This document shows positions 3,316 through 47,240 of a stretch of DNA of 54,391 bases, in pieces. Below the pieces are notes generated by a model that was given only the letters and a program-made list of their open reading frames with translations, made no database searches and was not told the DNA's origin. The DNA comes from Thermoplasmatota archaeon (GTDB lineage Archaea > Thermoplasmatota > Penumbrarchaeia > Penumbrarchaeales > Penumbrarchaeaceae), in contig JAFGLL010000104.1 in NCBI GenBank assembly GCA_016928095.1, positions 1-54,391 of the forward strand, in the 5' to 3' direction. Both the position numbers and the translations under genes were made by a program. The number at the start of each line of letters is the position of its first letter. Position 1 is the first letter of the stretch.

Positions 3316-3993
3316 CTATCCCTCTTCTGGGCCTTCCGGGATCTGATAGTTGCACCATGTGCAACGATGGTTCCACAGATTCGAGAACGAGCTGTCTTCG
3401 GGGCGCAGGACCCGATAGGGATGGCCGCATCTTGGACAGTACCCCACTACCCTGGTCTTTCTATGGTCCAGGACCACCTTCTCCCGGGGTTCGGGTCTGG
3501 CTCTACCATCCCTTACGGAGGCTGTTCTTCTTGCTGTCATCTCCGGAATGTCCTCTATGACAAGGGTCCCCGATATACTGTCGAACAGTTTTTGCCTTCC
3601 ATCATTGGCGACGGCATTCCCAAGAGCGTAATCCAGAAGAGGTAATACTACCGGAACCATCTGGAACAGGTTCCTTAAAAGCGACTCTCCTAAAGTCACA
3701 GGTCCGTATGCATCGATGACTCTGAGACCCATCATGCCCTTTCCGATGGATTCTCCCCTCATCCCCTCCATGACAGATTTGACCAACCAGTTGAATATCC
3801 CTGCAATGATCAGTACCATCAACCATGTCTTGTAACCGGACAGGTCAACGGAGAGAAGCAGAGCTACAAAAACGACGCCAAGGAGGACCACTACCAGATC
3901 GATGATGTAAGCAAGCGCTCTCTTCAGCTCGTAATTCTCCGTTTTGAGGTATCTCCCGGGATCCAGGTGAACCTTCTCCATACCGTATTCCAT
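3316..3993 (-). CDS. RDD-family membrane protein with C-terminal zinc ribbon
   Basis: A 225-residue protein. Residues 20-130 form an RDD domain: an initial segment with Lys-Arg-Ala and an Asp in the first membrane helix (KRALAYIIDL), a second helix near 55-75, the characteristic polar SIGKGMMGLRVID segment near 82-94, and a third hydrophobic stretch near 108-128. RDD proteins are small polytopic membrane proteins, some tied to ion or osmotic homeostasis; no activity can be assigned. The C-terminal 70 residues are cytosolic-looking and end in CPRC...CTWC, a zinc ribbon that is an unusual addition to an RDD protein. A TATA-like box lies about 33 nt before the ATG. Confidence 0.8.
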   Translation of the reverse strand: MEYGMEKVHLDPGRYLKTENYELKRALAYIIDLVVVLLGVVFVALLLSVDLSGYKTWLMVLIIAGIFNWLVKSVMEGMRGESIGKGMMGLRVIDAYGPVTLGESLLRNLFQMVPVVLPLLDYALGNAVANDGRQKLFDSISGTLVIEDIPEMTARRTASVRDGRARPEPREKVVLDHRKTRVVGYCPRCGHPYRVLRPEDSSFSNLWNHRCTWCNYQIPEGPEEG

Positions 3994-4059: not shown

Positions 4060-5337
4060 TCAGCTTTCAGAACCCCGGTCCTGTCCGTTGTAATTCCTCT
4101 GTAGTTCAAAGAGAAGCTCTTGTTCCAGTTTGTCCGTTTCTTCCTCCAATTCAAGATCGCGATCCGAGTATGGGCTCTTGGAGGGATAAAGAACCGTTGG
4201 TTGGGTTTTTTCTTCCTTCGTATCCTCCGTCATTTCCCGACCGGGAGGCCTCTTCAGAATTACCCCTTCCAGGACCTTTCTGACGAGAGATACGGTAACG
4301 GGCTCCTTCATGAGGGCGGCATACGCCGTAACACGATTGAAACCTCCTTCCAATTCCCTCACGCTCGAATCGAGATAGAAGGCAAGATAGTCCAGGACCT
4401 CCGAGGTGAAGGAATATCCCTCATTTGCCGACAGGTTCTGAAGGACCTGCCTCCTTCCATCAAAGGTCGGGACCTTGATATCTATTATCAATCCCCCCTC
4501 GAACCTGGACCTCAATCTCCCTTCAAGCTCCCTTATATCAATAGGTGGCCTGTCCGAACACAGGACTATCTGCTTACCGGAATTGTATAGCTGGTTGAAC
4601 ATGTGAAAGAACTCTGTCTGGGTCGCTTCCTTCCCAGAAAGCATCTGGATATCGTCGACAAGGAGAACATCTATGTTTCGATAACGGGACCTGAAACCTT
4701 CAAGGTCGTCCCTCTCGAGGGCCTTCAGGAGCTCGTCCGTGAACTTCTCGGTGGATGAATAGAGTATGGTCTTGGCGGGTTCGATCTCATGGACCTTGTT
4801 TGCGATCGCATGGAGGATGTGGGTCTTTCCGACTCCGACATTCCCGTAGATGAAGAGCGGATTGTACCTTTTTCCTTTTCCGGTCGCCACTGCCTCGGCG
4901 GCCAGATACGGGAAGCGGTTAGCCTCGTCCACAACGAAGTTATCGAAATTCTTGTCCTCGAGGATAGGGTTCGACAATGCTGCAACTATTTCCACGTTCG
5001 GAGCTTTCCTCTTCATCTGGTCCGCTTTCCCTGGATGCTCCAGAGACTGTTCGAGGGGGGACGATCTCTCGGACATCAGTCTTTCTATCGCCATCTGCTG
5101 CTTTTCCACCATCCCCGAGAAGTTCTCCTGCATCCGGGCGAACCTGCTCTCCATCTCCTTTATCTTCCTCTCCTGTTCCAGGTTTAAAAGCCTTTCCCTC
5201 TTGAGGTCATGCAATACTTCATCATACCTATCGGACCCGGAATCATCGGAGGTTCGGACCTTCTCGGATCCTTTGGAGGCCTGGCTATCCGATCTTTTAT
5301 TCTTACGACCGCCCTTGAACCAATCAAGAAAACCCAT
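4060..5337 (-). CDS. DnaA-type AAA+ ATPase with coiled coil, no DnaA domain IV
   Basis: A 425-residue protein whose residues 128-360 read as a bacterial DnaA AAA+ module: FDNFVVDEANRF, YNPLFIYGNVGVGKTH (Walker A 165-172), an initiator-specific region KFTDELLKAL followed by FRSRYRN (198-221), Walker B VLLVDDIQ (224-231), sensor I LCSDRPP (259-265), box VII GRLRSRF with its arginine finger (273-279), and sensor II Arg in SSVRELEG (324-331). Domains I and II of DnaA are replaced by a basic, Ser-rich segment (1-35) and a predicted coiled coil (about 38-95). After residue 365 there is only an acidic, Glu-rich tail, so the helix-turn-helix domain IV that binds DnaA boxes is missing. Archaea start replication with Orc1/Cdc6, so this is unlikely to be a standard initiator. 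Hda, another reduced DnaA relative, is shorter and lacks the initiator-specific region. Function unknown. Confidence 0.9.
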   Translation of the reverse strand: MGFLDWFKGGRKNKRSDSQASKGSEKVRTSDDSGSDRYDEVLHDLKRERLLNLEQERKIKEMESRFARMQENFSGMVEKQQMAIERLMSERSSPLEQSLEHPGKADQMKRKAPNVEIVAALSNPILEDKNFDNFVVDEANRFPYLAAEAVATGKGKRYNPLFIYGNVGVGKTHILHAIANKVHEIEPAKTILYSSTEKFTDELLKALERDDLEGFRSRYRNIDVLLVDDIQMLSGKEATQTEFFHMFNQLYNSGKQIVLCSDRPPIDIRELEGRLRSRFEGGLIIDIKVPTFDGRRQVLQNLSANEGYSFTSEVLDYLAFYLDSSVRELEGGFNRVTAYAALMKEPVTVSLVRKVLEGVILKRPPGREMTEDTKEEKTQPTVLYPSKSPYSDRDLELEEETDKLEQELLFELQRNYNGQDRGSES

Positions 5338-21734: not shown

Positions 21735-21860
21735 TACCGGAGATGTATCCATGATGAGCATACAGATTTTTCACGGTTCAATGAAAAAGCTTAAAATGTC
21801 CATTCCAGTATATTCAATTGGGGACCTATTCGTGAGCTGACGGTCTCCCGAGGACAATTG

Positions 21861-23867
21861 ATGGCAATGGGCGAGCATCGATCGGGGAAGAATCGTATCA
21901 TCAGCATCTTTGACCCCCTGAAGGACAGGGTCGTTATTTCACTGATAGCGGTGGGTGTGATGGTGATACTCCTCCTGACATCCATCGGGATCTTCTTCAT
22001 CGACAGCCCCGCAGGCGTGGACCACGGGGGCGGTGGGAGTGACAATGAAAAGATGGGGCTCGAGATCACATATCTACCTGCTGAACTGAGGTCGGGGATG
22101 CAGCAGGAGATCAGAGGCATGATCACGGATGACAAAGGCATCCCTGTCCCCGATGCACTGGTGACCATCAACTTCACCAACGACCCAGATGATATATACA
22201 GGACCACGAGCGGTCCCGACGGTCAGTTCACTCTCCCATTCTGGTCACCGGAGACCGAATCGGACTCCACATACGATTTCGACATAACGGGTTCGAAAAA
22301 TGGTTACGACACTAAAAGCATCCCTCTCGAACTGGAGATCGTCACCCCGGACGACTGGACCTTTATGATCTACATGAGCGACTGCGACCTGGAGGAGTTC
22401 GCCCTGAATGACATCAACGAGATGGAAAGCATTCCCCATGGCGATCATCTGAACATCATAGCCCAACTTGACCGATGGGAGAGCTTATCCCCCAAGGACG
22501 ACAGGTCCGACGGGAACTGGACCAGTGCAAGAAGATACCTCATAGAACCGGATAGCGACACGAGATCGATCGGGTCAAGGCTTCTCGAGGAGCTCGGGGA
22601 GATCAACACGGCAGATCCCATGGAACTGGTGGATTTCGCAACGTGGGCGATGGAGGGATATCCGGCGGACAGGTATGCCCTGGTCCTCTGGAACCACGGT
22701 TCAGGTATAGACGGTATATGCTGGGAGCAGTCCATGGAGGAGGACGATGTGATAACCATCAAGGAGCTCGGGGAGGCCCTTGACAGTATCACAGGGAATA
22801 TCGGGAGGCCCCTGGACATCATTGGGTTCGATGCATGCCTCATGTCCACCATTGAAGTCGCCTACGAGATAGCCCCTTATTCCAGATACATGTTGGGCTC
22901 CGAGATCACCGAACCGACGTTCGGATGGGACTACGGTGTCCTTGACGAGCTGATCAAGGACCCTTTCCTGACGGAGATGGAACTGGCTGAGGAGATAATA
23001 GGGGGATATATCTCCCAGACGGACCTCACACAATCCAAACGGTCCCTTTCCATGGGAGTTCTGGACCTCATCATGGCCGATGGGACGGTATCCCGTCTCG
23101 ACAACCTCTCCAATGCCATCAACAGTGCGGGCTCGGCCGAGATATACAATATGAGGATCGCAAGGAAATATTCCCAACCCATCAGCAACGGCTACAGTTC
23201 GGACGCCGTCGATCTCAAGGACTACGTCGAGAAAATAATGGACCTGTCAGCAAGCCAGCAGGTCAAGGAGAGCGCGCAGCTGCTGCTGGATTCCTTGACC
23301 GGTATGATCGCCGGGTTCGACAGGGTCCAGGGTATCAGCGACATCGATACGAACGGGCTCAACGGCATATCCATCTATTCCCCTGACTTCAAGGATGTCA
23401 TGGACCAAAATGAGGATTACGACGATCTCAAGTTCGTGGAGGACACCAGCTGGAAGCAGACACTGCTCTCATATTACGAGAACATGGGTACGTATATGGA
23501 GGAGCGGGTCGTCTCCTTCCAGGACGATCTTCTTTCCTGCAAGGTCAAGGACGAGGACGGGGACCTCCTTCCCGACACCATGGTCTACCAGTTCAGGGTG
23601 GTCTCCGAGATCGATGAAGTCGATGTCTTTCTTGGTATCAACGTTTACGACCTGAGGGGGGACTACATAAATTCGACATGGTTGGAACTTAACCTGAGCT
23701 CCAGCGAGGACATGGACCTCATGGTCAAATTCCAGCCGAGAGGAGAGGACCGGGAGCCCGGGATGTACCGGATAGTCGCCTATCTGTGCCTCGGACCAGA
23801 ATTCGACCCATTATCGCTCCAGGACTACACCAGAAGCGGTTACCGTTGGCTCGAGATATACGGGTAA
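21861..23867 (+). CDS. Anchored clostripain-family (C11) cysteine peptidase
   Basis: A 668-residue extracellular peptidase. A single membrane helix near 24-45 (VVISLIAVGVMVILLLTSIG) acts as signal anchor. Residues about 65-155 form an Ig-like or carboxypeptidase-regulatory-like beta domain (VPDALVTINFTNDPDD, DGQFTLPFWSP). The C11 catalytic domain begins at DWTFMIYMSDCDLEEFALNDINEM; the catalytic dyad is His279 in NHGSG and Cys326 in GFDACLMS. A beta-rich C-terminal domain follows from about 530. Clostripains cleave after Arg, and proteins of this kind have been reported in Marine Benthic Group D archaea as tools for degrading detrital protein. Adjacent ATGs at 21861 and 21867 are both possible starts. 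Confidence 0.92.
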   Translation: MAMGEHRSGKNRIISIFDPLKDRVVISLIAVGVMVILLLTSIGIFFIDSPAGVDHGGGGSDNEKMGLEITYLPAELRSGMQQEIRGMITDDKGIPVPDALVTINFTNDPDDIYRTTSGPDGQFTLPFWSPETESDSTYDFDITGSKNGYDTKSIPLELEIVTPDDWTFMIYMSDCDLEEFALNDINEMESIPHGDHLNIIAQLDRWESLSPKDDRSDGNWTSARRYLIEPDSDTRSIGSRLLEELGEINTADPMELVDFATWAMEGYPADRYALVLWNHGSGIDGICWEQSMEEDDVITIKELGEALDSITGNIGRPLDIIGFDACLMSTIEVAYEIAPYSRYMLGSEITEPTFGWDYGVLDELIKDPFLTEMELAEEIIGGYISQTDLTQSKRSLSMGVLDLIMADGTVSRLDNLSNAINSAGSAEIYNMRIARKYSQPISNGYSSDAVDLKDYVEKIMDLSASQQVKESAQLLLDSLTGMIAGFDRVQGISDIDTNGLNGISIYSPDFKDVMDQNEDYDDLKFVEDTSWKQTLLSYYENMGTYMEERVVSFQDDLLSCKVKDEDGDLLPDTMVYQFRVVSEIDEVDVFLGINVYDLRGDYINSTWLELNLSSSEDMDLMVKFQPRGEDREPGMYRIVAYLCLGPEFDPLSLQDYTRSGYRWLEIYG

Positions 23868-32114: not shown

Positions 32115-33956
32115 TCATTCCTTTCTCTCTACCATGTAGAGGATGTCCTCCCACGGATGCCGATACAATCTCTCACCCATCCTTTTCTGGTCCAGTGCAT
32201 GTCCAATCAGTCCGATGGACCTTCCAAGGACGAAGAAACCGTTCAAGTATCCCAGGTTCACGATGTTCCTGACCTCTTCGTCATTGTAATGGCCCACCCC
32301 CCGCAGCATGTCCACCATGAGAACACCGATGGTCCCGTCCACGTTCAGTATGAGATTGGACTTCTTCTGGGTCGTAACCGTCTGTACACCGAGCGCGAAA
32401 TCCAGAAGATCGGTCCTGGGGAAGTTCTTCCTTGCATACTCTATTAGCAGGGTGACCCTGCCGTCCGGGTTCTCCAGCGATTTCACCCTGTGGCCGATAC
32501 CCGGGATCTTGACGTTCTTATCCTTCATCTCCTTGACGAAATCCCTGGGTACGATCCCGCGCCTGAACGCATCGCTCATGTACTTCGCACAATCGTCGAT
32601 GGCACCTCCGAACCTGGGTCCGATCGTAAGAAGACCCGAACAGAGGCATGAGATCAGGTCCTTTCCGGCCCTGGATGCGATTATGGCATTGTGAGCTCCC
32701 GATACGGCGGGGCCGTGGTCAGCAACTATCATCAAGGCCATCTCCATGAAATCGGTGGCCCATTTGGGGAACCTCCTACCGAACCATAGCAAGGATATCA
32801 CATCACCTATCTTTCCCCCGGAGTGGACTATCTCCGAGATCGGATATCCTCCGTAGTTGACCTCCTCCCCGCGGTCATCCGCGACAGTGCTGATGAATGA
32901 TGTGGGTTTGCGTATGATCCCGCGTTTTAATGCGTCCGCATAGTCCATCGGTATGTTGGGTACGTTCCTGGGCTCCTCTATCGGGGTGATCTTTCCCTCG
33001 TCCTTGAGCTTGATGAAGGTCCTTGCTATCTCCTCGCCCAGAGTATCGAATGAGTGCGGGACTATAACTCCGGCCTTCTTGAGTGTCTTGTTCTTGGCAT
33101 CGGCGGTCTCCGCTTCGGCCCCTGCCTTGGCCCCGGCATGACCGAACTGAACGCCCGCCGGGAACATCTTCGAGCAGGTACCCATCACCCAGAAAACAAT
33201 GGGTTTTGTAAGGAGCCCCTTATTTACAGCTTCAACGACCTTGTACTCCTCGTCCCCTCCGAGCTCTCCCAGGGCCACCATAATCTTGATCTTGGGATTG
33301 GCCTCGTACCTCAGCAGGTGGTCTATCAGGCTCGATCCCGGGTACTTGTCACCTCCTATTGCGACCCCCTCGAATATACCGTCAGTATTGTGAGATACTA
33401 TGTTGAACATCTCGTTGAGTAGACCCCCGGACTTCGTTACCAAACCCACGGAGCCTCTCCTGTAGAGCTTCTGCTCCCTTATGTTCTCTATCGTACCTCC
33501 GGTGTTGCCCACTTTGAAAGCCCCCGCCCCGATGGCCCCCACGGTTGCGGGTCCTATGATGATCTTCTTGAGCTTTTTGGACAGGTGGGCAAGTTCCCTG
33601 GCCTTCCTCTCGGGAACACCCTCCGCGATGACCGCGACAACCCTTATCTGTTTGTTCAGCAGGGCTTCCTTTGTGGTGGCGTAAGCAGATCTGAAGGAGG
33701 CGAAATTCACCATGACGTCAATATCGCCGTTGGCATCCGTAGCCGTTTGTATGGTGGGATATATGGGTATCAGGACCTCGCCTTTCCCCCAGTGTGCCTT
33801 GTGCGTTCCTGAATTACCCGGGTTCACTATGGCGGCCACGGAAGGCTTCTCCCTTCCGGAGAGATAATCGAAGTCCAGCATTCTCTGGACGGCCTTTGTC
33901 TGCATGTTGTACACTATCGATCTGGTATCTCTGGAGAAAAGCAGGTATGGTTCCAT
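32115..33956 (-). CDS. aclA: ATP-citrate lyase, large subunit (SCS-alpha plus citrate synthase-like)
   Basis: A 613-residue subunit closely similar to the C-terminal part of human ACLY. Residues 30-330 are the succinyl-CoA synthetase alpha-like CoA-ligase part (KPSVAAIVNPG, NFASFRSAY, IGPATVGAI, FKVGNTGG) with the phospho-accepting His273 in QFGHAGA. Residues about 345-613 are the citrate synthase-like cleavage module (ADHGPAVSGAHN, GIGHRVKSLENPDGR, NLILNVDGTIGV, LGRSIGLIGHALDQKR, YRHPWEDI). With the small subunit it converts citrate, ATP and CoA to acetyl-CoA and oxaloacetate, the key step of the reductive TCA cycle in bacteria such as Chlorobium. ATG 33956 overlaps the stop of the small-subunit gene. 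Confidence 0.97.
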   Translation of the reverse strand: MEPYLLFSRDTRSIVYNMQTKAVQRMLDFDYLSGREKPSVAAIVNPGNSGTHKAHWGKGEVLIPIYPTIQTATDANGDIDVMVNFASFRSAYATTKEALLNKQIRVVAVIAEGVPERKARELAHLSKKLKKIIIGPATVGAIGAGAFKVGNTGGTIENIREQKLYRRGSVGLVTKSGGLLNEMFNIVSHNTDGIFEGVAIGGDKYPGSSLIDHLLRYEANPKIKIMVALGELGGDEEYKVVEAVNKGLLTKPIVFWVMGTCSKMFPAGVQFGHAGAKAGAEAETADAKNKTLKKAGVIVPHSFDTLGEEIARTFIKLKDEGKITPIEEPRNVPNIPMDYADALKRGIIRKPTSFISTVADDRGEEVNYGGYPISEIVHSGGKIGDVISLLWFGRRFPKWATDFMEMALMIVADHGPAVSGAHNAIIASRAGKDLISCLCSGLLTIGPRFGGAIDDCAKYMSDAFRRGIVPRDFVKEMKDKNVKIPGIGHRVKSLENPDGRVTLLIEYARKNFPRTDLLDFALGVQTVTTQKKSNLILNVDGTIGVLMVDMLRGVGHYNDEEVRNIVNLGYLNGFFVLGRSIGLIGHALDQKRMGERLYRHPWEDILYMVERKE

Positions 33957-35239
33957 CAATTCACCCCCTTTCCTTCATCTCTGAGCGCCATCGGAATGAT
34001 CGAGGTCATGTGAAGCTCCGGACCATAGACCTTTATGGGGATGCCGATCTCGGAACCGACCTCCTTCATCTTCTCAAGGCCGGCCTTGAAGTTCGGACCG
34101 CCTCTCCTGACGTATATCCTGACCCCGACCTCCTTCATCTGGTCCGAATATTCCTTCATGGCCTGGATGATCCCCGTGAAGGTATTGGCGACATCCGTGA
34201 AGTTTGCGATGCCGCCCCCTATGATGAGGACCTTCTCCTTGCCGGACCTGTGTTTTGACCTCGTCATCATCGAGAGTATCGTCTTGGCATAGAGGTAGGT
34301 AAGTTCCGTTGATGGGTCCCCCGAATACTCGCCGTAGTTCGAGAGCTCCTTTCCGAAACCCATGTCGACAATGGTGTCCGCGTACACAACGGAAGCTCCT
34401 CCGCCCGCCACCATGGTCCATATCCTGCCCTCAGGGTTCAGGATGGTGAGCTTGAGGGATGCTCCGGTCTTCTCGTCCAGGGACTTGATGTAGGCCTCTT
34501 CCGGTGTCGGGTCCTTTCCGAAGGGTTCGGGGAACTCCCCGAAGTCCCAGACCCCCACGTTCTGGTATGCCGCCGTGTCATCGACCTTTGCCACCATGTC
34601 CAGTACCTTGATCTTCCTGTCCACGATGGTGAAGGGATTTATCTCGAAATAGACAAAATCGTGATTGAGGAAGAACTGGTATGTTCCCTTGAGGAAAGGT
34701 GCCAGAAGCTTCTTCTCTTCAGCGCTCAGTCCCTCAAGGAGCGGTTCGGAGTCGAACTCCTGATCTTCCAGCGGTGATACGCTGACCTCCTTGACGGTCT
34801 CCCAGACCGATTCGATATCCACACCGCCCTGGGTCGAGAAATAGATATGGTCTGCATCGGCCTCCATCTTTATCGCTACATAGTACTCACTGTCATGAGG
34901 AATGAACGGTTCGACAAGGAAATGTGTCAATTTTCCCTTGACCTGTCCTATCTTTGCGCTCTTTCCCATCTTCTGCCTGATGAAGTTGGCAGCCTCCTCG
35001 AAGGAGGCATCCAGCAGGACCAATCCCGATTTGCCCCTCTTTCCAAAGAGCTGGTCCGGTTTGACCACAAGCCTCATGTTATGGAGCCATGGGTTCTCTT
35101 CCGGTAGCTTCTCGATTTCGGTCCCTGGATCGACAAGGATCGGCATTATATCGAACTTGATCTTCTCCCCTGTATACTGGGGCATCATCCGGTAGAATAT
35201 CCTTTTTGCATCGTACTCACGAATTCCCCTTCGGGCCAT
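33956..35239 (-). CDS. aclB: ATP-citrate lyase, small subunit (ATP-grasp, citrate-binding)
   Basis: A 427-residue subunit matching the N-terminal part of human ACLY. Residues up to about 240 are the ATP-grasp fold (NMRLVVKPDQLFGKRGKSGL, LVEPFIPH, FEINPFTIVDRKIKVLDMVAKVDD); the rest is the citrate-binding region (PFGKDPTPEEAYI, GASLKLTILNPEGRIW, MVAGGGASVVYADTI, NYGEYSGDPS, GGGIANFTDVA, VRRGGPNFKAGLE). The split into two genes is the bacterial arrangement, here with the small-subunit gene first. The ATG at 35239 after GTGGTGGTC is chosen over upstream starts because homology begins at RRGIREYDAKRIF. A TATA-like box (minus strand GTTTATATC) lies about 35 nt upstream. Confidence 0.97.
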   Translation of the reverse strand: MARRGIREYDAKRIFYRMMPQYTGEKIKFDIMPILVDPGTEIEKLPEENPWLHNMRLVVKPDQLFGKRGKSGLVLLDASFEEAANFIRQKMGKSAKIGQVKGKLTHFLVEPFIPHDSEYYVAIKMEADADHIYFSTQGGVDIESVWETVKEVSVSPLEDQEFDSEPLLEGLSAEEKKLLAPFLKGTYQFFLNHDFVYFEINPFTIVDRKIKVLDMVAKVDDTAAYQNVGVWDFGEFPEPFGKDPTPEEAYIKSLDEKTGASLKLTILNPEGRIWTMVAGGGASVVYADTIVDMGFGKELSNYGEYSGDPSTELTYLYAKTILSMMTRSKHRSGKEKVLIIGGGIANFTDVANTFTGIIQAMKEYSDQMKEVGVRIYVRRGGPNFKAGLEKMKEVGSEIGIPIKVYGPELHMTSIIPMALRDEGKGVN

Positions 35240-38243: not shown

Positions 38244-38335
38244 TACCTGGGGCGTCGATATACCACTAATAATATCTACGGGAACATGACTGACTGGATG
38301 GTTCCTGCAGAGTGATCCGTCATGGAGGACTTTCG

Positions 38336-41300
38336 TTGAGATCCCGGATGGTCGTGCCTATACTCGTTCTGTTCATGCTGCTTCCCTCTTCCATCCTTGC
38401 GGCAGCTGCTCCCGGACAGGTCCCCGCAGGGACGATGGACCTCACCTCCTTTGTCCTTGAAGGATGCGTGGAATTCCAATTCGGGTTCGAACCATCGGGT
38501 GTGGAATTCTACGATGTCGATGGATCCGTGGTTGTCAGTAAGGAGGGGATGGGGTCGACCGCTGTAACGGGAGAACCGTTGGTGCCTGTATCCCTCCACT
38601 CGTTCGTAATTGATCCTTACGCCTCCGAGGTGGAGATCGAGATCGTATCCTCCACCTTCGATATCATCCCTGCCCCGGGACCGATCATGGGCGTTCCCCG
38701 GCAGGTCCCCATCGGCCTCCCGGAAGATATACCTCCCACAGAATACTCGGTTCCGCTCGATGGTCCGCTCAGGACCCTTGCTACCGGATACGTCCGCGGT
38801 CACTTCATCCAGGATATTGCTTTCCAACCCGTTCTCCCGCTCTCCGACGGCACCTTGATGATATACAGTAGCGTGGAAGGAAGGATACGGTTCTCTTTCC
38901 CCGTGAACGGTGAGAGGACTTCCACCACCAGCAGGTCGACCTCTGTCTTCAGGAGCTACCTGGAGGGAAAGCTCGAGAACCCGGAGGACCTGGACAGGTT
39001 CGGGGCAAGACCCATTATTTCACCTGCCTCCTCTCGACTGCAAGAGGAAGACGTCCAGTATGTATTGGTCACCAACAGTACCCTGGTCGGCGACCACCTG
39101 ACGAAGATAAGGGACTGGAAACAGCAGAAAGGAGTTCCCTCAAGGATAGTGGAGATGTCCTTCATCACCTCGAACTACAACGGGACGGACGCTCAGGAAA
39201 AGGTCAGGAACTTCATAAAGGACGCCGTTTACTCCTGGGAGACCGAATATATCCTCCTGGGAGGGGACATCTCCGTGATCCCCTACAGGTCCACATATGT
39301 CAAGTCCGGAAGTTATGTGGAAACGGATTGTGCCGCGGACCTCTATTACTCGGACCTTGATGGGTCCTTCAACGATGACAACGACAGCTTATGGGGTGAG
39401 GTGGAGGACAATGTGGACCTGAGACCCGATGTCATTGTTGGAAGGGCTCCGGCCCAGACCTCCGAAGAGATGGATACCTTTGTGAAAAAGACACTGAAGT
39501 ACGAGATCGACCCGATCTCCGGTTACCTTGACAACGTGACCCTTGCCGGGGAATATCTGGATGCCAACACCAACTCTTCCCTGGGATTGGACCTTATCAA
39601 GAACAACCTCCTTCCGCCCAACATCAACGCAACCTCTCTCTATGACAGCGCTCAGGGTGTTTTCGGGAACCTCGACAGGCCGAACTTCATGGCCCAGGTG
39701 GACAGGGGCCTGTCCTATGCCTTCCATTCGGGCCATTCGAACTACAACGTCATGAGCGTTGGGACCGCCGGCCAGAGCTCTCTTTACAGCACGGATGTCC
39801 CCAGTTATAGCGGCGGATACCGGATCGGTGTCATGAACTCCCTTGGATGCATCGCCAACCGCTTCAGCGTGAACGACTGTATCGGCGAGCTCCATGTGAT
39901 GGAGTCCGACGGCGGTTCCGTGGTGTTCATCGGGAACAGCAGGTACGGCTGGTATGCCCCTTACAACCCCGGAATGGGCACCTCTGATGTATACATGTAC
40001 AGGATGGCGATAGAGCTGTTCTCGAACGGGAATACGAACATGGGAGCGCACTTCGCCCTTGCCAAAGATGCATTTACAGGTTATTCAGGGTCCGACGGCT
40101 CCTACCGATGGCTCCAGATGGCCCTCAACATGATGGGCGAACCAGAGATGCACGTCCGGACGGCCGAGCCTGGTCTGTTCAATATAACGCTTCCGGATAA
40201 CATCGGCAGGTCGTATACGGGTTTCAACATCACCGTGAACAATGCGAGCGGGAGCCCTGTGAAGAACGCACTGGTATGTCTCCAGCAGTCAGGGTACTAC
40301 GCATACAACCTCACCGGAAGCGACGGAAAGGCCTTCTTCGATATCTCCACCCAGAACTTCGATATTGTGAACGTGACGGTCACGGGATACAATTTCCTCC
40401 CCTTCACTGCCAACATTTCCATCGATATAAGACCGCCAAGCTTGATCATCAACTCTTGCGGGAATGCCACCACCGGGGATGATTACGAGTTCAACTGCAC
40501 TGCCATCGACGAGGCCGGGATACTGTCCGTGCTTCTGGACCTCAGAATGGAAGGTCAGGACTCCAATGACACGGTTACCTATCAAATGGTTAATGATGGA
40601 AGTTACTGGACGGTTCCCGTCGGGATACCTCAAGATTCCACGAAAGACCTGCTCTGCCGCTACAGGGGGAGAGACAATTCCGGGAACTGGAACGAGACCC
40701 TGTGGACCACCGTGAACGTCATTGACAACGATATGCCATGGATCATCGACGACATGACCGACCCCGTCTCGACCACGGGAGAGGTGATAGACTTCAATAT
40801 CACGGCTGGAGACAATATAGACGTCTCCTCCATTCAACTGTCCATATCCTGGAACGGCTCGGAAGGGACAGAGCACATAGATATGGTCCATGCTCCCGAC
40901 AGATGGGTCCTAGCATGGGATGTTCCTTCGGACAGGATCGGCACGCTCGATTACATCGCCGCCGTTCATGACGGGGCAGGCAATATCAACGCTTCCCATA
41001 TCGGGAGCGTCCTGGTCCTTGATAATGATGCTCCGGTCATCCTGCAGGACCTCTCGGACACCGTCGGCTCGACCTCGGACGACGTCAGGTTCATAGTATC
41101 TGTGGAGGACAACATAGGTCTGGAGGGGGTCTTCGTCGAGTTCTGGAGACTCGGTTACCCCGAACATGAGACCATACCGATGGTATCTGACGAAGAGTTG
41201 TGGACCCTATTCATCGAACTGTCCCCATCCGACCTCGGGACCATTTACCATATCTTCCATGCCATGGACACCTCGGGCAACTGGGTTCATTCCCTGGAAG

Positions 41301-42364
41301 GCAACTCGACGGTCATGGATGACGATCCACCTCTTCTTTTAATGGACAGATCCCCCCTCAATGCCACGACCGGCGACCCTCTGGAGTTCAGGGTCTCGGT
41401 ATCCGACAACATACAGGTTGGCTCGGTGGTGGTCTACAGTTCCATCGCCCCGGACCCTCTTGATATGGAACCCGATCCCGACGGGGTCAACTGGACTGTC
41501 GTGGTGAACGCACCTTCGGATTCGATCCTACCCGTCACCTATTCTTTCCAGGCATGGGACACATCGGACAATACGAACATGTCCGGGGACAGGACCCTTT
41601 CCATCCTGGACAATGACGGGCCGACCTTCGGGAACCTTACATCCGCCGGAGTGATAGATGCAGGCGGAAACCTTTCAGTCACGATCGGGATATCCGACAA
41701 TATTGGCGTGGAACGAGCGCAAATGGAATGGTGGATCGGGGGTAGTGCTAAAAAGGACCTCATAGAAATGGTGGATGATACAAGCGGATACTCTGGCTCC
41801 TTCGGAGTCCCGCTGGAAGCCTTCGGGACCGTCTATTTCAGGGTCCGCGCTTGGGACCTTGCAGGGAACTCGATGGTCTCTCAGCGTTATGAAGCCTCGA
41901 TAATAGAGTATGATCCTGAAGGTCCAGGGGACGATGATGAGCCTATTCCGGGAGACGACGACTACGTGGAGCCTGTTGACGACGACATCTCCGACGACGA
42001 TGACAACATCCCGGCGGAGGGAGTTGATGAAGATCTGGACGGGATGGACGACCTTTGGGAGTACATCAACGGTCTGGACACATCCAGGGACGACTCCCTG
42101 TCCGACCTTGATGGGGATGGATACCGCAATATAGATGAGTACAGGGCCGGCAGCGACCCTGGGGACATATCAAGCTTCCCTCGACCATCGGATGACGACG
42201 GCATATATGGTGGATCGAACCTCCTGCTGCTCATCCTGATCGGGACTGCGGCACTGTGCCTAATCATCCTGATAGTCGTGGCCGTTGTTATCGCCGTCAG
42301 AAGGTCCAGGGAGGCCACCGATGTCTGGGATCTCGATGAGGACGAAGTGATGTCCTGGGATTAG
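38336..42364 (+). CDS. Gingipain-family (C25) surface cysteine peptidase
   Basis: A 1342-residue secreted and membrane-anchored protease. Signal peptide at 1-27 (VVPILVLFMLLPSSILAAAA). Residues 40-230 resemble the gingipain propeptide. The C25 domain starts near VQYVLVTNSTLVGDHLTKIRDW; IILGG-like YILLGGDISVIPYR is a core strand, and the catalytic pair is likely His467 in HSGHSN and Cys505 in SLGCIANRF. After about 630 come an Ig-like domain and then five related beta-sandwich repeats of about 100 residues, each with a T(T/S)G(D/E) strand and SDNI(G/x)V. An acidic Asp/Glu/Pro linker, a calcium-binding DGMDD...DLDGDGYRN segment and one C-terminal membrane helix (LLLILIGTAALCLIILIVVA) complete it. 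TTG 38336 follows GGAGG. Confidence 0.93.
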   Translation: MRSRMVVPILVLFMLLPSSILAAAAPGQVPAGTMDLTSFVLEGCVEFQFGFEPSGVEFYDVDGSVVVSKEGMGSTAVTGEPLVPVSLHSFVIDPYASEVEIEIVSSTFDIIPAPGPIMGVPRQVPIGLPEDIPPTEYSVPLDGPLRTLATGYVRGHFIQDIAFQPVLPLSDGTLMIYSSVEGRIRFSFPVNGERTSTTSRSTSVFRSYLEGKLENPEDLDRFGARPIISPASSRLQEEDVQYVLVTNSTLVGDHLTKIRDWKQQKGVPSRIVEMSFITSNYNGTDAQEKVRNFIKDAVYSWETEYILLGGDISVIPYRSTYVKSGSYVETDCAADLYYSDLDGSFNDDNDSLWGEVEDNVDLRPDVIVGRAPAQTSEEMDTFVKKTLKYEIDPISGYLDNVTLAGEYLDANTNSSLGLDLIKNNLLPPNINATSLYDSAQGVFGNLDRPNFMAQVDRGLSYAFHSGHSNYNVMSVGTAGQSSLYSTDVPSYSGGYRIGVMNSLGCIANRFSVNDCIGELHVMESDGGSVVFIGNSRYGWYAPYNPGMGTSDVYMYRMAIELFSNGNTNMGAHFALAKDAFTGYSGSDGSYRWLQMALNMMGEPEMHVRTAEPGLFNITLPDNIGRSYTGFNITVNNASGSPVKNALVCLQQSGYYAYNLTGSDGKAFFDISTQNFDIVNVTVTGYNFLPFTANISIDIRPPSLIINSCGNATTGDDYEFNCTAIDEAGILSVLLDLRMEGQDSNDTVTYQMVNDGSYWTVPVGIPQDSTKDLLCRYRGRDNSGNWNETLWTTVNVIDNDMPWIIDDMTDPVSTTGEVIDFNITAGDNIDVSSIQLSISWNGSEGTEHIDMVHAPDRWVLAWDVPSDRIGTLDYIAAVHDGAGNINASHIGSVLVLDNDAPVILQDLSDTVGSTSDDVRFIVSVEDNIGLEGVFVEFWRLGYPEHETIPMVSDEELWTLFIELSPSDLGTIYHIFHAMDTSGNWVHSLEGNSTVMDDDPPLLLMDRSPLNATTGDPLEFRVSVSDNIQVGSVVVYSSIAPDPLDMEPDPDGVNWTVVVNAPSDSILPVTYSFQAWDTSDNTNMSGDRTLSILDNDGPTFGNLTSAGVIDAGGNLSVTIGISDNIGVERAQMEWWIGGSAKKDLIEMVDDTSGYSGSFGVPLEAFGTVYFRVRAWDLAGNSMVSQRYEASIIEYDPEGPGDDDEPIPGDDDYVEPVDDDISDDDDNIPAEGVDEDLDGMDDLWEYINGLDTSRDDSLSDLDGDGYRNIDEYRAGSDPGDISSFPRPSDDDGIYGGSNLLLLILIGTAALCLIILIVVAVVIAVRRSREATDVWDLDEDEVMSWD

Positions 42365-44749: not shown

Positions 44750-45122
44750 GCAGGGACCTCACATATCTGTTCCCTTATTCAATTTTCTCATTGTTTGGGG
44801 ACCTTGCATGTAATTTCCACACGAAAAATGTGCGTATATCACCTGGGTCACGGTTCCTGGTAAAAAGGATGCGGCGAGGGGGTATAAAAAACATATTCCT
44901 TATCAAACACTACGTTGGTCCCAACCAAACAATCATCCTCCCTTCCCAAATGGCAATGAAAATAGTGGCTGCTATCAAACTGTACACTCAATCCCCCTTC
45001 CAACCCCACCCATTGGTGTTGCATCCTATCATAATATTTAAAATGGGCATACATGTTGGTACACCTATCAACTCTTATATTTATATATATGCCTTGCATT
45101 AATGCATATCATAAGTGTGGCC
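44750..45122. other. Long intergenic region between manC and the PAS regulator
   Basis: This 373-nt stretch serves divergent genes. On the plus strand a good TATA-like GGTATAAAAAA lies at 44881-44891 with no convincing gene behind it; a 50-codon frame (44950-45102) has no homology or ribosome binding site. GTTGG-TC-CCAAC (44914-44925) is a small inverted repeat. The promoter of the PAS gene lies at the right end. A small RNA from the 44881 promoter is possible but unsupported. Confidence 0.4.
45076..45106 (+). promoter_or_regulatory. TATA box and start-site palindrome of the PAS regulator
   Basis: TATATTTATATATAT (45076-45090) is a strong TATA-like region. A perfect 12-bp palindrome TGCATTAATGCA (45095-45106) covers the expected transcription start about 25 nt downstream and the first possible ATG. 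A repressor bound there would block initiation; autoregulation by the encoded winged-helix protein is plausible. Confidence 0.4.
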
Positions 45123-47240
45123 ATGGACGATCCGCAAAAACAGACAGGCAGTATATTGAGGGCGCTCAGGTCCAGTCCACGCGGTCTTTCCATAACGGAG
45201 ATATCCAGGTCCATAGGGCTCAACCGGAACTCTACAGCCAAGTATCTCGATGTACTTCTATATACCGGAAGGATAGAGGTCAGGAACATGGGGAGAGCCA
45301 AGCTCTATTACCTCTCACAGAGGGTTCCGATCTCTGCTCTCCTTGATTTCTCTTCGGACCTCATCATCGGCCTGGACGGTCAGTTGAGGGTTATCGACGC
45401 CAACGATAACTTCCTAAGATTCTTCAATGTGAAGAAGGATATGCTCATTGACAGAAAGATCACGACCATAGACCTCCCCATATTCAACACCCCCGAACAG
45501 ATCTCTCATCTACAGAACGCGGTGAAGGGGACCGACGCTAACCTTGGTCTCGAGATACCCCTTGGTGAGGATGTCCACTTCTTCAGGTCCAAGCTCATAC
45601 CGACCATAATGGGGGACGGCAAGAAAGGTGTCACAGCCATCCTCGAGAACGTGGACGAGCAGAAGTTCGCCCAGAGATTGGTGCATGAGAGCGAGATGAA
45701 GTTCAGGGCCATCTACGAATCGGCCATGGATGCGATGATCTTGACCGATAATGAGACCTTCTTCGAATGCAACGATGCCACCAAGAATATGTTCGGGATC
45801 ACGGATGTGGAGTTCATACAGAAGAAATATCATTTCTTCTCACCGCCGACACAACCCCATGGAGAGGAATCCCAGGTGATCCTGTCCCGTCATATGGAAA
45901 CTGCCCGGCATAACGGTCTCGCAAGGTTCGACTGGGTCCATAGAAGGTTCGATGGTACGAACTTCCAGACGGAGACCATCATCACGCCCATGAACCTCTA
46001 TGGCAAGGAATCCCTCCTCATCGTCATCAGGGACATCTCCGAGAGGAAGGAGATGGAATCCGCCCTCAGGGAAAAAGAGGAGATCTACAGGACGCTTTTC
46101 GAATCACTTCCCGACGCGGTGATGATACTGGAAGACGGAAAGGTGATACAATGTAACGAGTCCACACTGAAGATCTTCGGAGTCTCGTCCAGGGATGAGA
46201 TCATAGGTAAGAGGCCGTCGGACCTGTCCCCACCATTCCAACCAGGGGGGGAGGTCTCCAGGACGATGGCCACCAGGCTTCTGGACGAAGCGGATGAGAA
46301 GGGCTTACTGAAATTCGAATGGGAGCACCTCAGAAGAGGTGACCCCTTCCTGGCGGAGGTCTCTCTGGTAAGGACCAAGCTCAACGACAGGCCGGTGATA
46401 CAGGCCACGTTGAGGGATGTAACGGAATTGAGATACATACAGGAGAACCTCCGACAGAACGAGGAAAGACTGAACAACATCCTCTCCTCCCTTCATGGTG
46501 CTTTTATTGGAGTGATGGACGAGAACTATGTGTATCAGGGATTCTGGGGGGCGCAGGAACTGGATGATATCTACGGGTTGAAGGCCTCCCAACTTGTTGG
46601 CAGGTCGGCGCTGGAGTTCCCTCCGCCGGATAAGGTCCCTCAGATGAAAGCACTGATAGACAGGGTGATCCTGACCGGCGAGTCCGTGACCTTCGAGGTC
46701 GAGGGGAGGTTGCCGAGCGGGACCTTCTTCCAGGATATGACGCTATCACCTTACAGGACACCGAACGGACATATACAGGGGGTCGTCCAGTTCAGCACTG
46801 ATACGACCGAAAAGCATCGTGTCCTTGGAAAATTGAAGGAAACGGAGCGTATGTACCATCTGTTGGACGATAATATATCCGATGTCATTTTCATGACAGA
46901 TCGGGAACTCAACTTCACGTACCTGAGCTCCTCCATAAAGAACCTCACCGGTCACGATCCGAAGGAATTGATCGGAAAGAACGTCAAGGACCGTATCACC
47001 ACCGCCTCTTTCGATATCCTCATGGAAGGACATGGTGATGAGATGAGAGATCTCATTTCCGGAAGGAGACGGGGGTTCGCATCCGTAAAGCTCGAAATGG
47101 ATATCATCAGGAAGGATGGTTCCACGGTTCTAACGGAGATCATCATCAACGTACTGACGGGGCCTGACAGGACACCTCTGGGTGTCATAGGTATCTCCAG
47201 GGAGATCGGGAGGGGTATCTCGATCTCCATTGCCTCGTGA
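45123..47240 (+). CDS. Winged-helix protein with five PAS domains
   Basis: A 705-residue cytosolic one-component regulator. A winged HTH occupies residues 8-65 (ILRALRSSPRGLSITEISRS, then NRNSTAKYLDVLLYTGRIEV and a wing ending in KLYYLSQR). Five PAS/PAC modules follow, starting near 73 (LDFSSDLIIGLDGQL), 197 (YESAMDAMILTD), 320 (FESLPDAVMILEDG), 445 (LSSLHGAFIGVMDENY) and 575 (LLDDNISDVIFMTD); the second and third share the pattern FF.PPTQP/LSPPFQP. No histidine kinase, response regulator or diguanylate cyclase domain is present, so signals sensed by the PAS array probably act directly on DNA binding. ATG 45123 is preferred to 45102, which lies upstream of the expected transcript start. Confidence 0.88.
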   Translation: MDDPQKQTGSILRALRSSPRGLSITEISRSIGLNRNSTAKYLDVLLYTGRIEVRNMGRAKLYYLSQRVPISALLDFSSDLIIGLDGQLRVIDANDNFLRFFNVKKDMLIDRKITTIDLPIFNTPEQISHLQNAVKGTDANLGLEIPLGEDVHFFRSKLIPTIMGDGKKGVTAILENVDEQKFAQRLVHESEMKFRAIYESAMDAMILTDNETFFECNDATKNMFGITDVEFIQKKYHFFSPPTQPHGEESQVILSRHMETARHNGLARFDWVHRRFDGTNFQTETIITPMNLYGKESLLIVIRDISERKEMESALREKEEIYRTLFESLPDAVMILEDGKVIQCNESTLKIFGVSSRDEIIGKRPSDLSPPFQPGGEVSRTMATRLLDEADEKGLLKFEWEHLRRGDPFLAEVSLVRTKLNDRPVIQATLRDVTELRYIQENLRQNEERLNNILSSLHGAFIGVMDENYVYQGFWGAQELDDIYGLKASQLVGRSALEFPPPDKVPQMKALIDRVILTGESVTFEVEGRLPSGTFFQDMTLSPYRTPNGHIQGVVQFSTDTTEKHRVLGKLKETERMYHLLDDNISDVIFMTDRELNFTYLSSSIKNLTGHDPKELIGKNVKDRITTASFDILMEGHGDEMRDLISGRRRGFASVKLEMDIIRKDGSTVLTEIIINVLTGPDRTPLGVIGISREIGRGISISIAS

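Follow-up and report, generated by a model that had tools for sequence, protein, structure and literature searches.

A DnaA-type AAA+ core without the origin-binding domain in Thermoplasmatota archaea, possibly re-used as an ATP-switched oligomer

DnaA is regarded as a hallmark of bacterial replication, and Orc1/Cdc6 as its archaeal counterpart. The IstB, DnaC and DnaI helicase-loader ATPases belong to the same initiator-loader group of AAA+ proteins, and Hda, the regulatory inactivator of DnaA, combines a DnaA-type AAA+ core with the absence of domain IV. From their description, the SSV 'DnaA-like' AAA+ proteins of archaeal viruses (arCOG07960, PMC4158269) are set apart as virus-associated, whereas the gene analyzed here is chromosomal and lies in a conserved housekeeping locus.

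This gene belongs to a Thermoplasmatota archaeon and is located in a window of 54,391 nucleotides, by which we mean the whole stretch of DNA that was analyzed. Compared with bacterial DnaA (TIGR00362; B. subtilis 8btg/8bv3, A. aeolicus 3r8f), its product has a similar domain III (46-48% identity to B. subtilis in the fold search) and keeps the nucleotide-sensing residues, the arginine finger and the base-capture pocket, but lacks domain IV and any recognizable domain I, and carries a new N-terminal peptide, a coiled coil and a C-terminal helix; moreover, its host uses Orc1/Cdc6. The likeness to Hda lies in the domain composition of the core: the coiled coil and the tail are both missing in Hda, the clamp-binding motif is missing in the window protein, and the identity to Hda in the fold search is ~20% as opposed to 48% for DnaA.

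A bacterial-type core in an archaeal gene

The gene reads as follows.

4060..5337, minus strand: gene for the DnaA-type AAA+ protein, 425 amino acids, with an ATG start at 5337 and the stop at 4060
4264..4956, minus strand: DnaA domain III (AAA+ core and lid), residues 128-358, from PF00308 and the fold match to 8bv3_A

The first-pass annotation gave no strand for 4060-5337; a plus-strand reading is ruled out because stops break the translation. The core is under purifying selection (dN 0.08 and dS 1.80 between the window and G003), and a profile search in archaeal genomes, the check that the first-pass annotation of this DNA had proposed, recovered the gene in all ten genomes of the window's order (10/10), together with related cores without domain IV across the phylum. 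Taken together, selection on the core and presence throughout the order indicate that the gene is real. It encodes the single DnaA-type core found by genome search in its genome. A mobile element or contamination is ruled out, given that the gene keeps its place among housekeeping genes in several related genomes; archaea-specific genes in the window, such as that for the archaeal ThrRS editing domain, also speak against contamination.

The assignment to DnaA is consistent across methods. The protein matches Pfam Bac_DnaA (PF00308) over residues 129-286 with E=1.4e-59 and 201.4 bits, and the NCBIfam DnaA model TIGR00362 with 307.8 bits, the match covering positions 36-341 of the model's 437 and ending about where domain IV starts. 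The latter score falls below the equivalog cut-off (343.9 bits), as the lack of domain IV would lead one to expect. The best sequence match among solved structures is B. subtilis DnaA (E=1.6e-69), and the best fold match of the AlphaFold2 model in Foldseek is the same protein (8bv3_A, E=1.1e-25, 48% identity, rmsd 1.7), the top ranks being taken entirely by DnaA structures (8btg, 8bv3, 2z4r, 3r8f). The model was built from a six-row alignment and has a mean pLDDT of 71.9, with core blocks mostly at 85-93 and low confidence at residues 1-34, 92-124 and 362-391; the other rows of the alignment were DnaA from viral contigs, which are informative for the core and not for the ends. Accordingly, the first-pass claim of a bacterial-type DnaA core in an archaeon stands. 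A closer kinship to IstB/DnaC-type ATPases, which that annotation had named as the finding that would overturn its claim, is ruled out by the fold search and by the profile scores, which amount to 33.7 bits (E=3.3e-08) for IstB versus 201.4 for Bac_DnaA in Pfam, and to 55.4 bits for the IS21 helper (IstB/DnaC-type) model versus 307.8 for DnaA in NCBIfam. Identity with Orc1/Cdc6 is likewise ruled out (14.3 bits against a family cut-off of 181.3).

Domain IV (Bac_DnaA_C, PF08299) is absent from the window protein by both Pfam and the AlphaFold2 model, was not found by genome search in the window's genome or its class, and exceeds the family cut-off in none of the 295 phylum genomes, which agrees with the earlier statement that the box-binding HTH is gone. 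Neither the AlphaFold2 model nor Pfam reveals an HTH or another hidden DNA-binding domain in the C-terminal tail, a possibility raised at the same time; the tail consists of one helix. The Pfam DnaA N-terminal domain (domain I) has no match in the protein either, residues 34-90 forming one helix.

Conserved motor and pocket, new ends

Within domain III, the functional elements of DnaA were located by alignment.

4822..4845, minus strand: Walker A motif GNVGVGKT, residues 165-172 (K171/T172), by motif alignment
4651..4656, minus strand: Walker B, D228/D229, by motif alignment
4624..4758, minus strand: initiator-specific region, residues 194-238, with the single-stranded DNA (ssDNA) base-capture residues, 9/9 pocket positions kept
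4504..4506, minus strand: R278, box VII arginine finger, equivalent to R264 of B. subtilis DnaA, by alignment
4357..4359, minus strand: R327, sensor 2, equivalent to R313 of B. subtilis DnaA, by alignment

Sensor 1 is present as well (S261-D262-R263), so that all the residues of Walker A and B, sensors I and II and the arginine finger that had been reported at first pass are indeed in place. The numbering is offset by 14 from that of B. subtilis DnaA, in which R264 is the published arginine finger (PMC10721633); from its retention, ATP-dependent filament formation appears plausible. The pocket was compared with the AAA+ residues through which DNA is contacted or captured in the origin complex of B. 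subtilis (PMC10721633). Their equivalents, E197, D201, L204, L207, D210, R216, K236, E237 and E242 (the last just outside the initiator-specific span, at 4612-4614), are identical in five cases and conservatively replaced in four, which bears out the earlier claim that the region contacting ssDNA has been kept. The window clade keeps the ATPase and arginine-finger sites as well as the pocket, which is complete (9/9) in five orthologues from genera g1, g3 and g4 and nearly so in family f2 (8/9), whereas only 4/9 positions remain in a short paralogue of genus g2, where the Walker B motif has also undergone a D-to-N change, and 4/9 in a transmembrane version of the protein (L068). Because the pocket was lost in some relatives, its retention in the window clade is not imposed by the fold. 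However, the pocket residues also serve protein contacts and are conserved in DnaA generally, so that retention is no proof of ssDNA binding; the window protein may perhaps still be able to hold ssDNA.

Three further elements flank the core.

5302..5337, minus strand: conserved N-terminal peptide MGFLDWFKGGRK, residues 1-12, hydrophobic then basic, a possible amphipathic membrane anchor, from the orthologue alignment
5068..5238, minus strand: single long helix, predicted coiled coil, residues 34-90, from AlphaFold2 and a heptad shuffle
4078..4164, minus strand: conserved C-terminal helix LEEETDKLEQELLFELQ, residues 392-420, from AlphaFold2 and the orthologue alignment

In the alignment of ten orthologues, the consensus MG[FLI][FL][DN]W[FLI] followed by basic residues holds throughout family f1, and a looser version of the peptide occurs in family f2 and in the G010 / family f3 relative (L057, MGIFDRLFKKKK). 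The pattern MG[LIFVM][LFIM][DN]x[LFIVM] matches these proteins and no other ORF in the fetched loci. The first-pass proposal that a coiled coil replaces domains I-II gains support from the heptad shuffle, which gave p = 0.006-0.026 in five orthologues. The 'acidic tail' of the same annotation holds in part: the tail is mildly acidic (17 D/E versus 10 K/R), but its conserved part is the helix, with E398, E405, L408, E411 and L412 invariant in 10 orthologues. Pairwise identity to the window protein is 71-87% in the core, 50-75% in the N-terminal peptide (8-21% in the adjoining linker), 30-61% in the coil and 58-76% in the C-terminal helix (17-34% in the linker before it), as opposed to 8-39% over the three linkers. 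The modules exceed the linkers in every pair, the margin being narrow for the G004 and G009 coils, a pattern suggesting four functional modules joined by flexible linkers.

The N-terminal peptide may be an amphipathic anchor, and the protein is probably tethered to the membrane. Its hydrophobic moment ranges among the orthologues from ordinary to extreme (51st to 99.6th percentile), and residues 1-34 are disordered in the AlphaFold2 model. Archaeal SepF, the N-terminal helix of which (~12 residues) binds membranes (PMC8178401), offers an architectural analogy, in that this short helix is followed by a flexible linker; the core of SepF is unrelated, and for the window protein anchoring is a prediction.

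Relatives across the phylum and the conserved locus

A Bac_DnaA match above a low Pfam cut-off was detected in 99 of the 295 phylum genomes; about 22 of these are strong (roughly at least 80 bits), another large group is diverged, and some of the weak matches are probably other AAA+ proteins. A partner of these cores elsewhere in the phylum, by fusion or operon-like adjacency, is DUF835, which PMC5847659 lists among the domains of archaeal response regulators as an inactivated KaiC. We identified 13 proteins in which a DnaA-type core is fused to DUF835, and in L057 the DnaA-type gene directly precedes a separate DUF835 gene, a split form of the fusion. The window protein is without DUF835; its genome encodes a separate SAP and DUF835 protein on another contig (L098), and a partnership between the two can be put forward as a hypothesis. 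Another architecture joins a giant coiled coil, the DnaA-type core and zinc ribbons, and a single protein, the transmembrane version mentioned above (L068:10352-11953, minus strand), has a signal-like segment, a fibronectin/phosphatase-N-like extracellular region and a transmembrane helix before the core. The g2 short paralogue (L058, L060, L062) occupies the same locus as the window gene, has the same ends, and keeps the arginine finger, sensor 2 and the N- and C-terminal motifs; the g2 genomes additionally carry the giant zinc-ribbon version.

Two other genes were observed in the course of the search. In L067 (7836-9392, plus strand), a DnaA-type core comes after a stretch with several CxxC motifs and a region of acidic repeats, and the genome search reported stops within the match. 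On a Deferribacter desulfuricans megaplasmid (L109:1057-2664, plus strand), a DnaA/Hda-family gene with a very long tree branch is found just upstream of parA and parB.

Core trees place the window protein in a group with seven family members, the diverged g2 forms included, with support of 99/94 for all rows and 100/100 when four long rows are left out. This grouping agrees with the synteny and thus indicates vertical descent within the family. With the four long rows left out, a single archaeal group of cores is not rejected (AU p = 0.173), and the deeper branches are poorly supported. The literature search returned no description of chromosomally encoded DnaA-type ATPases in archaea or of DnaA-DUF835 fusions; absence from a search is no proof, but the family is apparently undescribed.

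The nearest neighbor of the gene is the following.

3316..3993, minus strand: RDD-family membrane protein gene (PF06271, E=5.5e-14), 66 nt downstream of the DnaA-type gene on the same strand

The RDD gene is a constant downstream neighbor in family f1 (L051, L052, L053, L058, L060, L062), and on that side is followed by a TtuA-like gene, a methyltransferase and a TPR protein; genes of the isopentenyl-diphosphate isomerase/isopentenyl phosphate kinase type lie on the other flank. Related genomes in the family retain this order wherever their contigs extend far enough. Because the neighbors are mostly housekeeping genes, they indicate no pathway. On the far side of the TPR gene, at a distance of a few kilobases from the DnaA-type gene, genera g4 and g3 carry a HerA/DUF87-type ATPase of >1,200 amino acids (L052:1-3648, minus strand, and L053:16128-19856, plus strand, respectively), with DUF835 detected by Pfam in the former and by genome search in the latter; the window contig ends before that position. 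Elsewhere in the window, we observed a clostripain-family (C11) peptidase of 669 amino acids (21858-23867, plus strand), a protein combining a CoA-ligase with a citrate synthase domain, an arrangement known from ATP-citrate lyase (32115-33959, minus strand), a 1,350-amino-acid protein with a gingipain-type peptidase C25 domain (38312-42364, plus strand), and a protein in which several PAS domains accompany an N-terminal HTH-like match and no kinase domain was found (45102-47240, plus strand).

Possible roles of the protein

We propose that the window protein represents a DnaA-derived AAA+ ATPase re-used in archaea as an ATP-switched oligomer and not as an initiator, a reading to which we assign a probability of about 0.45. 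In broader terms, the sequence evidence supports a new role for the DnaA core outside replication initiation. Under the proposed mechanism, the N-terminal peptide would lie against the membrane, perhaps together with the RDD protein encoded by the next gene, and the coiled coil would pair or bundle the subunits; ATP would then drive head-to-tail assembly through the arginine finger, the residue by which adjacent protomers of DnaA are coupled, and the assembly would display the C-terminal helix to partners and might hold ssDNA without sequence preference. In related lineages this ATPase module is joined to DUF835, and ties to signaling domains are frequent in the family, so that its general role is probably that of a signal-dependent assembly platform.

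The first alternative, which we consider unlikely, is that of a Hda-like replication regulator acting on Orc1/Cdc6 or the archaeal clamp. It would accord with the shared domain logic (a core without domain IV), with a detectable match to the Hda profile (103.7 bits), with the retained ssDNA pocket and with the presence of Orc1/Cdc6 in every genome of the class. However, the Hda score is far under the cut-off of 194.8, neither an Hda-type clamp motif nor a PIP-like motif was found in the window protein, and the DUF835 and transmembrane fusions of its relatives do not suggest replication. The genomic context is no more favorable. The host does use Orc1/Cdc6, as had been assumed, but its two Orc1/Cdc6 genes are on other contigs; a search for a linked orc1/cdc6 or origin found neither, the neighbors being housekeeping genes and the RDD gene, and DnaA-box-like sites within the window are at chance level (3 versus 2.03 expected), so that the replication role or origin link entertained at first pass was not borne out.

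A second alternative, to which we give similarly little weight, is a membrane-tethered ssDNA handler that might serve, for instance, DNA uptake, transfer or repair, with the filament holding incoming or exposed strands at the membrane. The complete pocket of the window clade and the nearly complete one of family f2, the anchor-like peptide and the adjoining membrane protein gene all fit this role, but no uptake, transfer or repair genes were recognized beside the DnaA-type gene. Moreover, the g2 short forms, with their altered Walker B motif, keep both ends and have lost the pocket; hence the common role of the module needs no ssDNA.

The least probable of the alternatives, a purely structural or signaling scaffold in which the core would be an ATP-dependent polymer and the pocket an inherited remnant, is suggested by that same g2 paralogue, which retains the arginine finger, sensor 2 and end motifs without the pocket or a full Walker B, and by the DUF835, zinc-ribbon and coiled-coil fusions of the relatives, but sits poorly with a window-clade pocket as complete as that of B. 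subtilis DnaA in a region about as conserved as the remaining core.

Returning to the ATP-switched oligomer, an extended version of this proposal, which we regard as speculative and rather improbable, is that a phylum-wide archaeal family has turned the ATP filament of the bacterial initiator into a membrane-bound, signal-controlled platform, with DUF835 as its usual partner, and that in the window's order the platform still captures ssDNA. If so, ssDNA capture by these proteins would link the state of the membrane or of a signal to DNA. 

An intact DnaA motor without the origin-binding domain in a conserved archaeal family shows that the motor is separable from initiation and can be re-used, and this family amounts to a natural experiment on the DnaA filament acting by itself, with a natural contrast between the window clade, which kept the pocket, and the sister-genus protein, which has the same ends and lost it. 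The family also bears on when and how often DnaA crossed between the domains of life.
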